Virus record (IMG/VR): IMGVR_UViG_3300006928_000074 | Span: 1-25,080 of that record | Reading direction: 5' to 3' (one strand) | From: a virus | Length of the DNA: 25,080 bases | Shown: piece after piece, positions 14,032 through 19,998 of the stretch | How the letters are laid out: each line of letters opens with the position of its first letter | Position numbering within the stretch: position 1 is the stretch's first letter | Position numbers and translations under genes: made by a program | The notes under the pieces: generated by a model | Seen by the model: only the letters and a program-made list of their open reading frames with translations | The model's database searches: none | What the model was told of the DNA's origin: nothing

Positions 14032-17000
14032 ATGGCAGATCTCAAGATAACCTCGCTTCCCGTATTAGCGGAAGGCTCGATTCAAGCAACTGACGTACTT
14101 GCAGTTGCAGACTTGAGTGCAACTGAGACAAAAAAAGTCACTGTTAAAGATTTAGTAGCGGCTGCTGTTGTTCTACTTGATGCAAATGATATACCTGCGG
14201 CAAAGATAGCAACTCCTTTTGCTGCTAACTCAGTAGCAACTGCTTCAATTCAAAACGACGCTGTTAATGCAGATAAATTAGCAACTAATTCTGTCACATC
14301 AGATGCTGTTGCTGCTAATGCTATCGGAGCAAGTGAATTAGCAGATAACGCTGTTGATTCAGGGGCTTTGGCTACTAATTCTGTTATAACAGCAAAAATA
14401 ACTGATCTTAATGTAACAACAGATAAGCTTGCTAGTAATGCAGTTACGACTGTTAAGATTACAGATTCTAGTGTAACTTATGCAAAATTAAATCTTACTG
14501 ATGGCGATATTCCTGGTGCAAAAATCACAGGTAATTCTATAACAAATGCACAAATAGGAGTCAATGCTGTAGGAGCTTCTGAACTTTCTGATAATGCTGT
14601 TGATACAAACGCTATTGCTAACTCGGCTGTAACAAATAATAAATTAGCTAATTCAAGTATCAGTCTTGGAGGTTTAAGCCTTTCACTTGGATCGACAGAT
14701 GCGACTCCAGCTTTCAACTTAACGGACGCTATAAATTATCCAGCATCGTCTTTATCTGGAACGATTACAAATGCACAGTTAGCAGGAAGTATTACTGGAG
14801 ACAAATTAGCTAATTCAACAATTGAAGCAGGAAAATTAAATTTAGCTGACGGATCTATAGCAGGAGCAAAAATAACTGGAAATTCCATAACTGCTGCACA
14901 AATAGCAGCAAACGCTATAACTGCATCTGAATTAGCTGATGACGCTGTAGATACTGCGGCTGTAGCAGACGGAGCGATAACAAGTACACAGATAGCAGCA
15001 AATACTATTGGAGCTGGAAATCTAGCTGCAAATTCTGTAGGAGCAAGTGAACTTGCAAATAATTCTGTAGATACTGGAGCTGTTGTTGATGGAGCTATCA
15101 CAAGAGATAAAATTGCAGACGGAGCAATAAACGCAGCAAAACTTGATGGAACTATTTCAGCAACATCTATTGGTGACAATACAGTTACAAGTTCAAAAAT
15201 AGCTGCTAATGCCGTAGGAGCTTCTGAATTAGCAGACAACGCTGTAGATACTGATGCCGTAGCAAATGCAGCCATAACAAACGACAAAGTAGCTAGTGGC
15301 ATTAGTGGAACAAAAATAAGCGATGGATCAATTACGGCTACAAAATTAAACACAAGTACGATTGATAGGTCTTTAAACGTAGCTTCTGGATCGCTTGGAA
15401 TTAATAACGCAATTACAGCAGCAACAAGATCTGGTATTACATATAACGCACAAGGCTTAATAACCGCTACAACTGCACTGGTAGCAAGCGATTTGCCAAT
15501 TTCTTCAGCTTCAGCCGTAGGTGGCGTTTCTGTTGGTACTGGTTTAAGCGTTACTGGTGCTGGTGCATTGTCACTTTCAAATAGTGTGACTGGTGCAACT
15601 GTATCTGGAATTACTTTCAATAATCAGGGAATGATTACTGCTGCCACTGGATTGACAGCAGCAAACCTCCCGATAGCAACAACAAGTGCAAAAGGAGCCG
15701 TACAAATTACATCTGGAGGTGGTTTAACTGTTGATGGATCGGGAAATCTTACGACTTCAACAAGTGGAGTAAGTGCTGGAACTTTTCAATCAGTAACTGT
15801 TAATAATAAAGGCGTAATTACAGCAGGTGCATCTTTAACAGAAGGGTTAATTCCATCACTTCCTGCTAGTAAAATAACAAGTGGAACTATAGATGCTGCA
15901 AGGATAGCGGCTGATTCTATTGATTCGTCTAAGCTTAGTAATTCTTCAACAACAATAATACAATCAATAGCTCAGTTAGGTTATCCAACAGCAGCATTTA
16001 CAGGGCAATTACTATTCGACCCAATTGCTGAAGATGCGTATCTCTGGGACGGGAACGCTTGGAATCCAATTACAACCTTAACAAAAGGAGCCTTACAGCG
16101 ATTTGGCACTTTTAATGCAAATCTCAGCCAAGTTGATTTTGTAACAAGTGCTGGAGCTGCTGCTGGATTATCAGTTGGACAAAATCTTCCTGCTGCTAGT
16201 TCCGCAGTAGACGGTGGATATGTTGTTGTTTCGGTTCAAGGTACTCCAAGTGGTATTGCAGGAATAACAGGAGTACTTAAGCCACCCGATTATTTATTAG
16301 GAGTAACTAATACTTCTGGATCTAACTGGGTAGAAATTGATTTATCTTCAACTGTTGCTTCACAAACTGCAAACCAAATTGGCTATACGCCTTTTGGTCA
16401 ACTTGCTTCTACTAATGTTCAAGCAGCAATTGATGAACTTGAAACAGAAAAATTAGCAAAAGCTGGTGGCACTTTTACAGGTGAACTGCTTATTGGTAAT
16501 GCTGGAAGCCTTGTTTTTGAAGGAGCAACAGCAGATGCTTTTGAAACAAAATTAACAGTTGCCGATCCAACAACTTCAGACAAAGTAATAACTTTACCAG
16601 ATATAACAGGAACAGTAATTACAACTGGAGATACTGGGACTGTCACTGGAACGATGCTTGCCAATGACACGATCCAGAACGTAGATATTAAGAGTGATGC
16701 TGCAATTGCATTTACCAAATTAGCTGATCTAACTTCTGGTCAAATTCTTGTTGGTAATGGGTCTAATGAAGCTACAGCAGTTGCAGTTACAGGAGACATA
16801 AGCATAAATAATGCAGGACTTACTGCTATTGGAACAGGCGTAATTGTAAACTCAGATATTTCTGGATCGGCTGCAATTGCAGGTTCAAAAGTTACCACTG
16901 GAACTACAAGTGACGTTGGTGTTTTACAGCTAACAAACTCAACCTCAAGCACTAGCACTTCAACTGCTGCTACTCCTAACTCTGTCAAAACAGCCTTTGA

Positions 17001-19998
17001 TCTTGCAACAACAGCAAATACAAATGCTGCTAACGCTGCTCAAACTACAGGTTCAACTTTTACAGGCAATATCATTTTAGATAATGCAAAAGAACTAAGG
17101 TTTAGCGAGCCAGATGGTGACGGATCTCATTACACAGGGATAAAAGCACAAGCACAATCAGCAGATATTGTTTTAACTCTTCCTGCGGTAGCACCTACAA
17201 CAGGTCAAGTACTCAAAAGTGGTTCTACAGCTACGACACTTGAATGGGCAACTGACTCTGCTACTGACTCAACAAAACTTCCTCTTGCAGGTGGAACGTT
17301 AACTGGAAATTTAATTCTTAATGCTCAATCCGATGTCAGATTTGCTGATGCTGATAGCTCACATTATGTAGCTCTTCAATCTCCTGCGACAATCGGAACA
17401 AGTTTTACTTTGACTCTTCCTACAGCAGATGGGTCTAATGGACAAGCTCTTATTAGTGATGGCTCTGGAAATTTATCTTTTTCAACAGTTACAACTGCGG
17501 CGGCTGGAGCTAATACACAAGTTCAATTTAATAACTCTGGTTCATTTGCAGGATCTAACTCTTTAACTTTTAATTCTGGTTCTGGAGCTTTAACTGCAAC
17601 TTCATTTATTGGAGATGTAACTGGAGACTTAACTGGTAACGCAGATACAGCAACAAAACTTGCAACTGCCAGAGCAATAAATGGAGTTAATTTTGACGGT
17701 TCCGCAGCAATAACGGTAACTGCTGCTGCTGGTACGTTAAGTGGTGCGACGCTTGCCAGTGGAGTAACAGCATCAAGTTTGACTTCTGTTGGGACTCTTA
17801 CAGGATTAACGACAACAGGTGATGTCAATTTAAATGGACAAGCTGATCTTAGATTTAAGGATTCTGATAGTTCTCACTATGTAGGTCTTCAAGCTGCTGG
17901 AACAATTTCAAACAGTTATACACTTACTCTTCCTGCTGCTGACGCTGCTGTTTCTGGTTATGTGTTAGCAAGTGATGGATCTGGAACCTTATCTTGGGTA
18001 GATCCAGGTTCAACATCATCACCAACATTTACAGGAGATGTAAGTCTTACTAATGATGGAGCTTTAATTGGATTTTCAAATCTAAATGCAACTTATACAG
18101 GCAATGCAAAAACATTAACGGTTACTGTTGCAAGTAAAACTGGTGCTCATCGCTACAACGGTTCTGGCTCTAGTAATGGATACAAAATTGACGGTAAAGA
18201 AGCTCCTTTCTTAACTCTTACCCCAGGTCGTACATATAAATTTGATCAAGCACATAGTTCCAATTCAGGTCATCCACTTGTTTTCTATGAGCTTGCCACT
18301 GGAACTTCATATACAACAGGAGTTACAACTAATGGAACCCCTGGTTCGTCTGGTGCTTACACACAAATAGTTGTTTCAGATACAACTCCACAAGTTCTTC
18401 ATTATCAGTGCAGCAATCACTCTTACATGGGTAATGCTGTTCAAACAAATAGTAATGTTGCTTATCGTTCCAGAAACGTAGAAGTTATTGCTCAAAACAG
18501 TGTAGCAGCAACGGTTTATCCTTTATTTTCTGGCAATGGAGCCACTGCAACAGGTTATTTAACTCCTGCTACTGACACAGGTTTTACTTATAACTCTTCA
18601 TCAGGAAATTTAACAGCTACTGAGTTTACTGGTGCATTAACTGGAGCTGCTTCACAAATAAAAGTTACGGCTGAAAGTGTCGAAGCTAATTGTTATCCTA
18701 TTTTTATAAAAACTAACCATACAGGCGATAAAGAACCAAAGAGTAGTACAAGTTTCTTCTTCAATTCAAGTACTGGACAGTTAAACGCTACATCTTTTGT
18801 CGGAGCAGGAGCAACCTTTACTGGTGATGTCCTCTTTGATGGAGCAACAGCAGGAAGAGATATCACTTTTGATCGATCAGTAAATTCTTTAATATTTGCA
18901 AATGAAGCTAAAGCTCAGTTTGGCACTAGTACTCTTTTCCATAACAGCATTGATCTATATATTCAAAACAGTGTAGGAGATATAAGACTTGAACCTAAAG
19001 GAGGCGAGGCTGGTCTTTGGTTGCATCGTGATGGTTCAGTCGAACTTTACGATGGGAATGCTGCTGGAACGTCTCAAAAGAAACTTGAAACTACTGCAAC
19101 AGGTGTAACGATAACAGGGACAGCAACAGCGACTGCCTTTAGTGGTTCGGGTGCTTCTTTAACTGCTTTAAATGCCTCTAATATTTCTTCTGGAACAGTT
19201 GCAACAGCAAGACTTGGAACTGGTACGGCTTCTAGCTCTAACTTCTTAAGAGGTGATGGATCGTGGCAAACAATTGATCTTACTAATTTAAGTGCAAATA
19301 GTTTAACTTCGGGTACTGTTCCTGACGCTCGTTTTCCATCAACATTACCTGCGGCTAGTGGTGCGAATTTAACTGCATTAAACGCATCAAATATATCTAG
19401 TGGAACTATTTCAGCATCGAGAATACCAACACTAAACCAAAACACAACAGGTTCAGCAGGAAGTTTTACAGCAGGTTCAGCGTCAAATTTAAACTCTGGA
19501 TCGCTACCAGCAGCCAGAATAAATGGCCTTGCTTTTAATGGCTCAAATATAACCAACGTCAACGCAACAACTCTTGATGGAATAGATAGTACAAACTTCT
19601 TAAGATCTGATGCTTCTGACACGATGTCAGGAACATTAACTATTGATTCGGCTTCAGCAGGAGACACTTTAAATCTAAAAAATAATACAAGCCCCATGAT
19701 TAACTTCAAAGTGGGGAACACACAGAAAGGATATTTGAGTTTTATCGGTGGACGTATGCAACTAGCGAATGAGCAAGAAGGTTGTTTTATGAAATTTGAA
19801 GATGATTGGACATTTAGTAATGATGGCGGTTCAAACTTCTACTCTGTTATTCATCAAGGGAACGTAGGGTCAGGAGGGAAATTATCTAATAAGAATGTTT
19901 ACGTCAATCAGATACACGGTGATGGTTCAAACCTAACCAACCTTCCTGCTTCCGAACCAAGCTATGCAGGATTGTTAAAACACTTCTGCGGATGCTAA
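14032..19998 (+). CDS. Giant tail fiber with beta-helical repeats and a cupredoxin-like domain
   Basis: This 1988-residue protein starts 'MADLKITSLPVLAEGSIQA' with AGGAG (14024-14028) just upstream. Order: virion-anchor segment (1-57); 'ASELADNAVDT'-type repeats (about 57-446); three 'GIT.N..G.ITA' units (near 468, 527, 588); an 'AYLWDGNAWNPI' unit (about 668); repeated 'GGTFTG'/'LTLP..D' units (about 810-1340); a cupredoxin-like domain (about 1362-1475); further 'TFTGDV' and 'LTALNASNISSGT' units (1595-1790); a C-terminal domain. Repeats are strand-forming and alanine/threonine/serine rich, as in trimeric fibers. It probably mediates host recognition. The end ('KHFCGC') is unlike the rest and may be the product of a frame change. 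No intramolecular chaperone motif is recognised. Confidence 0.85.
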   Translation: MADLKITSLPVLAEGSIQATDVLAVADLSATETKKVTVKDLVAAAVVLLDANDIPAAKIATPFAANSVATASIQNDAVNADKLATNSVTSDAVAANAIGASELADNAVDSGALATNSVITAKITDLNVTTDKLASNAVTTVKITDSSVTYAKLNLTDGDIPGAKITGNSITNAQIGVNAVGASELSDNAVDTNAIANSAVTNNKLANSSISLGGLSLSLGSTDATPAFNLTDAINYPASSLSGTITNAQLAGSITGDKLANSTIEAGKLNLADGSIAGAKITGNSITAAQIAANAITASELADDAVDTAAVADGAITSTQIAANTIGAGNLAANSVGASELANNSVDTGAVVDGAITRDKIADGAINAAKLDGTISATSIGDNTVTSSKIAANAVGASELADNAVDTDAVANAAITNDKVASGISGTKISDGSITATKLNTSTIDRSLNVASGSLGINNAITAATRSGITYNAQGLITATTALVASDLPISSASAVGGVSVGTGLSVTGAGALSLSNSVTGATVSGITFNNQGMITAATGLTAANLPIATTSAKGAVQITSGGGLTVDGSGNLTTSTSGVSAGTFQSVTVNNKGVITAGASLTEGLIPSLPASKITSGTIDAARIAADSIDSSKLSNSSTTIIQSIAQLGYPTAAFTGQLLFDPIAEDAYLWDGNAWNPITTLTKGALQRFGTFNANLSQVDFVTSAGAAAGLSVGQNLPAASSAVDGGYVVVSVQGTPSGIAGITGVLKPPDYLLGVTNTSGSNWVEIDLSSTVASQTANQIGYTPFGQLASTNVQAAIDELETEKLAKAGGTFTGELLIGNAGSLVFEGATADAFETKLTVADPTTSDKVITLPDITGTVITTGDTGTVTGTMLANDTIQNVDIKSDAAIAFTKLADLTSGQILVGNGSNEATAVAVTGDISINNAGLTAIGTGVIVNSDISGSAAIAGSKVTTGTTSDVGVLQLTNSTSSTSTSTAATPNSVKTAFDLATTANTNAANAAQTTGSTFTGNIILDNAKELRFSEPDGDGSHYTGIKAQAQSADIVLTLPAVAPTTGQVLKSGSTATTLEWATDSATDSTKLPLAGGTLTGNLILNAQSDVRFADADSSHYVALQSPATIGTSFTLTLPTADGSNGQALISDGSGNLSFSTVTTAAAGANTQVQFNNSGSFAGSNSLTFNSGSGALTATSFIGDVTGDLTGNADTATKLATARAINGVNFDGSAAITVTAAAGTLSGATLASGVTASSLTSVGTLTGLTTTGDVNLNGQADLRFKDSDSSHYVGLQAAGTISNSYTLTLPAADAAVSGYVLASDGSGTLSWVDPGSTSSPTFTGDVSLTNDGALIGFSNLNATYTGNAKTLTVTVASKTGAHRYNGSGSSNGYKIDGKEAPFLTLTPGRTYKFDQAHSSNSGHPLVFYELATGTSYTTGVTTNGTPGSSGAYTQIVVSDTTPQVLHYQCSNHSYMGNAVQTNSNVAYRSRNVEVIAQNSVAATVYPLFSGNGATATGYLTPATDTGFTYNSSSGNLTATEFTGALTGAASQIKVTAESVEANCYPIFIKTNHTGDKEPKSSTSFFFNSSTGQLNATSFVGAGATFTGDVLFDGATAGRDITFDRSVNSLIFANEAKAQFGTSTLFHNSIDLYIQNSVGDIRLEPKGGEAGLWLHRDGSVELYDGNAAGTSQKKLETTATGVTITGTATATAFSGSGASLTALNASNISSGTVATARLGTGTASSSNFLRGDGSWQTIDLTNLSANSLTSGTVPDARFPSTLPAASGANLTALNASNISSGTISASRIPTLNQNTTGSAGSFTAGSASNLNSGSLPAARINGLAFNGSNITNVNATTLDGIDSTNFLRSDASDTMSGTLTIDSASAGDTLNLKNNTSPMINFKVGNTQKGYLSFIGGRMQLANEQEGCFMKFEDDWTFSNDGGSNFYSVIHQGNVGSGGKLSNKNVYVNQIHGDGSNLTNLPASEPSYAGLLKHFCGC
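14323..15266 (+). repeat. Imperfect DNA repeats in the fiber gene
   Basis: At least five imperfect copies of a roughly 35-45 base unit encoding 'GASELADNAVDT'-like peptides begin near 14323, 14569, 14917, 15037 and 15213, with similar units between them. The copies near 14569 and 15213 share GTAGGAGCTTCTGAA. They are in frame, so copy number could change by recombination without breaking the gene. Confidence 0.7.
18110..18465 (+). other. Cupredoxin-like domain inside the fiber
   Basis: Residues about 1362-1475 contain 'FLTLTPGRTYKFDQ', 'SNSGHPLVFYE', 'GTPGSSGAYTQIVV' and 'LHYQCSNHSYMGNA'. H1414, C1460, H1463 and M1466 reproduce the His...Cys-x2-His-x(2-4)-Met ligand pattern of type 1 copper proteins such as plastocyanin. 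Whether copper is bound is unknown. Domains of this look are, from memory, common in marine phage structural proteins. Confidence 0.68.

Follow-up and report, generated by a model that had tools for sequence, protein, structure and literature searches.

The window analyzed here is a stretch of virus DNA of 25,080 bases (positions 1 to 25,080 of the record IMGVR_UViG_3300006928_000074). The nearest relative of its capsid protein is found in AG-345-A17, a single-cell marine virus record (73%), and the next-nearest relatives are those of the cyanosiphoviruses S-2L, KBS-S-2A, S-H1, and MED4-184. A tail protein has weak relatives, in Synechococcus phages only. From these sequence comparisons the virus is likely a marine cyanophage with a siphovirus-type tail, and the "probable cyanophage" of the first-pass annotation is borne out by the nearest relatives of both proteins. 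The window encodes a large tail fiber that matches PF03406 (Phage_fiber_2) with an E-value of 1.3e-8 in a Pfam search and was assigned to tail fiber families using PHROGs. The N-terminal half of the fiber is repetitive (Phage_fiber_2 repeat), and the C-terminal half is a mosaic. The features of the fiber gene are as follows.

14032–19998, plus strand: tail fiber gene, an open reading frame of 1988 amino acids assigned by PF03406 and PHROG tail fiber families
17779–18078, plus strand: upstream fiber module, which recurs in other phage genes with a different C-terminal cap and without the cupredoxin
18079–18459, plus strand: cupredoxin-fold domain, fiber residues 1350–1476, from the AlphaFold2 model and its fold matches in the PDB
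18271–18273, plus strand: H1414, predicted first His ligand, just ahead of strand 1416–1419; kept in 98 of 99 non-redundant homologues
18409–18411, plus strand: C1460, predicted Cys ligand, the final residue of strand 1455–1460; kept in 95 of 97 homologues
18418–18420, plus strand: H1463, predicted second His ligand, in the C-x2-H-x2-M loop; kept in 96 of 97 homologues
18427–18429, plus strand: M1466, presumed axial Met ligand; kept in 96 of 96 homologues
18460–18840, plus strand: downstream fiber module, part of which follows an ordinary repeat in fiber L486, without the cupredoxin

The residue numbers and positions given for H1414, C1460, H1463, and M1466 in the first-pass annotation are exact in the open reading frame 14032–19998. 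The cupredoxin-like domain that it had placed at 18110–18465 is present there, with an extent that is slightly wider, at about 18079–18459. The C-x2-H-x2-M motif appears once in the whole fiber, compared with about 1.4e-4 occurrences expected from composition. A further histidine near the site, H1408 (18253–18255), is a private change in this fiber; the residue is Asp in nearly all of the relatives, and H1408 is outside the predicted metal site.

The structure of the domain was predicted using AlphaFold2 with an alignment of 132 diverse members that are 27–87% identical to the window domain. The model contains eight strands, with a pLDDT of 90.6 and a pTM of 0.85. A model obtained with a shallow alignment (32 sequences, 72–93% identical) has a pLDDT of 45 and was set aside. 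The Foldseek comparison of the 132-sequence model with the PDB provided eight matches with E < 0.001, every one of which is rusticyanin, followed by multicopper oxidases, laccases, and nitrite reductases. The top 50 PDB matches are without exception cupredoxins, and the Foldseek TM-scores to the PDB cupredoxins are modest (0.42–0.58). In domain numbering, the four residues of the AlphaFold2 model are H65, C111, H114, and M117, and the strands are located at 67–70, 106–111, and 119–122. C1460 closes the next-to-last strand of the model, and H1463 and M1466 are found in the loop preceding strand 1468–1471. The placement of the ligands along the predicted strands is the layout of a type 1 copper protein. 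The cupredoxin-like domain that had been proposed for the fiber is thus recovered as a confident model with matches to blue copper folds, and from prediction and homology together the domain is almost certainly a Greek-key beta-sandwich of the cupredoxin superfamily.

The window domain gave no usable match in direct sequence searches against Pfam, NCBIfam, and the PDB. It does not match PF00127 (plastocyanin/azurin), no match to the Copper-bind family was obtained in the whole virus record, and phmmer detected no match to the domain among the PDB sequences, amicyanin included. A profile search of the PDB provides weak but independent agreement with the fold matches: its best-ranked chain belongs to a multicopper oxidase, at E = 0.042, with pseudoazurin second at 0.13 and a copper nitrite reductase third at 0.66. 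When PF00127 was compared with the 132 relatives, 6 of the 132 matched, with E-values of 0.0067 or worse. For the At5g54830-like domain of Pfam (PF25489), the bacterial relative L403 passes the cut-off and 32 of the 132 phage members match weakly; the window domain itself has no match.

Alignment of the domain by hhalign with amicyanin (a sequence that agrees with PDB 1aac) and plastocyanin gave an E-value of 4.4e-4, and each of the four ligands is aligned with its counterpart. The values for the reversed, shuffled, and other-window controls were 0.016 or worse. The beta-sandwich and the His-Cys-His-Met order are common to the fiber domain and to amicyanin and PF00127 Copper-bind, and the amicyanin loop (C92, H95, and M98) has the identical C-x2-H-x2-M spacing. 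The fiber domain has no significant direct sequence match to amicyanin or the small blue copper proteins, and the context of its first ligand is HP, in contrast to HN in the amicyanin-type proteins. The latter are free electron carriers, whereas the fiber domain is embedded in a phage fiber. Rusticyanin, which provides the best PDB fold matches to the domain model (E = 1.3e-4), is a periplasmic redox protein with a longer loop and is 12–16% identical to the fiber domain. By its predicted fold and ligand layout the domain is a member of the cupredoxin superfamily, but its score does not place it in PF00127 and its loop spacing is not that of a plastocyanin.

Ligand conservation was analyzed in a set of 99 domains with less than 80% mutual identity. 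The ligand set and order proposed in the first-pass annotation hold across these homologues, with all four residues kept in 95 of the 99 non-redundant domains. The ligand columns rank 2, 4, 5, and 7 in conservation among all columns, and the near-invariance of the ligands extends down to approximately 40% identity; the loop residues between the ligands vary freely among the homologues. Among the matches listed for search patterns that contain no ligand residues, all four ligands are present in 67 of 68 new loci, a control for search bias. Exactly one Cys is found in 94 of the 99 domains. A single Cys per domain leaves no partner for an intradomain disulfide, and an interchain disulfide is conceivable.

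The same data bear on a structural-only beta-sandwich, in which an Ig-like spacer or adhesion domain would keep the four residues for packing and would hold no metal. In favor of this explanation is a natural loss of the site in L146 (3004–3336), where the Cys is replaced by Ser and the second His by Asp and the domain is still recognizable. The other three of the four domains without a full ligand set come from large wedge or structural proteins, where they are incomplete or degenerate copies. Two copies of the domain are found in each of the cyanomyovirus baseplate wedge or structural proteins L086, L087, and L088, one with the ligands and one degenerate, and the copies without some or all of the ligands also favor the structural-only explanation. 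From L146 and the second copies in the wedge proteins, it follows that the cupredoxin fold can outlast the site. However, the Cys and the Met are strictly retained, which speaks against a purely structural role: four types of ligand residue, a lone Cys and a Met among them, are near-invariant amid variable loop neighbors, and such a set is seldom required by packing alone. A domain that serves only as a structural element is unlikely.

The modular insertion suggested earlier for this part of the fiber is supported by the fiber L486 and by the reuse of the flanks elsewhere. Up to about residue 1050, L486 and the window fiber are approximately 85% identical; beyond that point L486 diverges, and it lacks the cupredoxin domain. 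The upstream flank is present in many other genes. The absence of the domain from L486 and the recurrence of its flanks in other contexts place the domain in an exchangeable half of the fiber. In relatives with domains that are 60–75% identical, the flanks are mostly without detectable similarity, which could also be explained by fast divergence of the flanks.

Relatives of the domain are encoded in at least 586 IMG/VR stretches and in named phages of Synechococcus, Prochlorococcus, Pelagibacter, and Methylophilales. The domain is carried by fibers of P-SSM2, P-TIM68, Bellamy, Melnitz, and Mosig. PHROG 30742 and the related families of cyanophage tail fibers and wedges contain the same domain, in proteins of the same type. 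These families are annotated as tail fiber or structural protein only, and no copper-site assignment was seen for them. No description of a cupredoxin domain in phage fibers was found in the open-licence literature. This distribution points to a predicted copper site, on an appendage that touches the host, in many marine viruses.

Few cellular relatives were detected in the approximately 630 genomes searched, and all of them contain the ligands. They were picked up in scans with the alignment; a genome scan with the single domain sequence gave none. L402, L403, L404, and L405 are Bacteroidota proteins, secreted or lipoprotein-like, in which the domain has intact ligands; from their sequences, some of these domains look to be adjacent to CHRD-like repeats. 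In the alphaproteobacterial proteins L393 and L394 the domain is duplicated in tandem, and both copies contain the ligands. Several of the matches from bacterial assemblies resemble phage fibers.

The favored explanation, with a probability of roughly 0.55 for the reading as a whole, is an exchangeable cupredoxin module with an intact type 1-like site, probably for copper, and a role in attachment. Residues 1350–1476 would form a cupredoxin module within the distal, variable half of the tail fiber, which is presumably a trimer, and the site composed of H1414, C1460, H1463, and M1466 would bind a metal, most probably copper. The copper would be acquired outside the reducing cytoplasm of the host. 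The bound metal would lock the beta-sandwich and the last loop to give a rigid and robust surface module, which may be involved in contacting the host envelope. Binding of a metal by the domain is likely, the presence of copper in the mature particle is somewhat favored, and for a function in attachment the chances are about even. A receptor-binding or copper-stabilized module is a plausible, putative assignment. A point against copper is that the cytoplasm in which phage proteins assemble contains almost no free copper.

During assembly in the cytoplasm zinc would be offered before copper, and zinc can be held by a Cys, two His, and a fourth ligand. Both points favor a site that holds another metal, such as zinc, purely for stability. 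The invariant Met, however, is a poor ligand for zinc, and the exact cupredoxin layout favors copper; a site for a different metal is considered quite unlikely.

Iron-binding phage fibers with HxH motifs and the "Ferrojan/Trojan Horse" hypothesis have been described for marine phages (PMC11705849). In the T4 gp37-type fibers the metal site is located on the phage fiber, as is proposed here for the cupredoxin module, but those fibers are trimeric with HxH iron sites, whereas the window fiber has a predicted single-chain Cys/His/His/Met site (PMC11705849). An HxH iron site was rejected for the window fiber because the motif (two His two apart) is absent from all 1988 residues. A copper counterpart of the iron proposal would have the loaded fiber act as bait or as a redox tool that engages copper-uptake or redox proteins of the host surface. 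It draws on the description of the iron case for marine phages (PMC11705849) and on the wide occurrence of the domain in ocean phages with differing hosts; against it, no receptor is known and the HxH motif is missing, and it is decidedly improbable. It is improbable as well that a large group of ocean phages has copper-loaded fibers and uses the metal at the host surface, either as uptake bait or as a redox trigger of infection. The mimicry of host plastocyanin suggested in the first-pass annotation, or descent from it, has in its favor a common superfamily and the many cyanobacterial hosts, but it is not favored and is extremely improbable. Pfam provides no plastocyanin match for the window domain, which has very weak similarity to plastocyanin and a loop with the amicyanin-type spacing C-x2-H-x2-M and not the C-x2-H-x4-M of plastocyanin. 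The cellular relatives detected are secreted bacterial proteins and not plastocyanin, and the domain also occurs in phages that infect Pelagibacter and Methylophilales, hosts without photosynthetic electron transport.

For the favored copper-bearing module, a loaded site would make marine phage particles copper-carrying particles, and the idea of a metal-bearing fiber would be widened from iron to copper. One Cys, two His, and one Met would then constitute a testable set of residues for effects on stability, adsorption, and host choice, and L146 is a ready-made natural control for loss of the site. The family is missed by current domain libraries in the window protein and is common in the fibers of cyanophages, pelagiphages, and methylophages.

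The domain model also has matches in BFVD. A0A481Z7Q7 and A0A481Z6J5 are stand-alone "beta-sandwich proteins" of 124–133 amino acids from Pithovirus environmental genomes, and longer Marseillevirus "beta-sandwich proteins" match the model as well.
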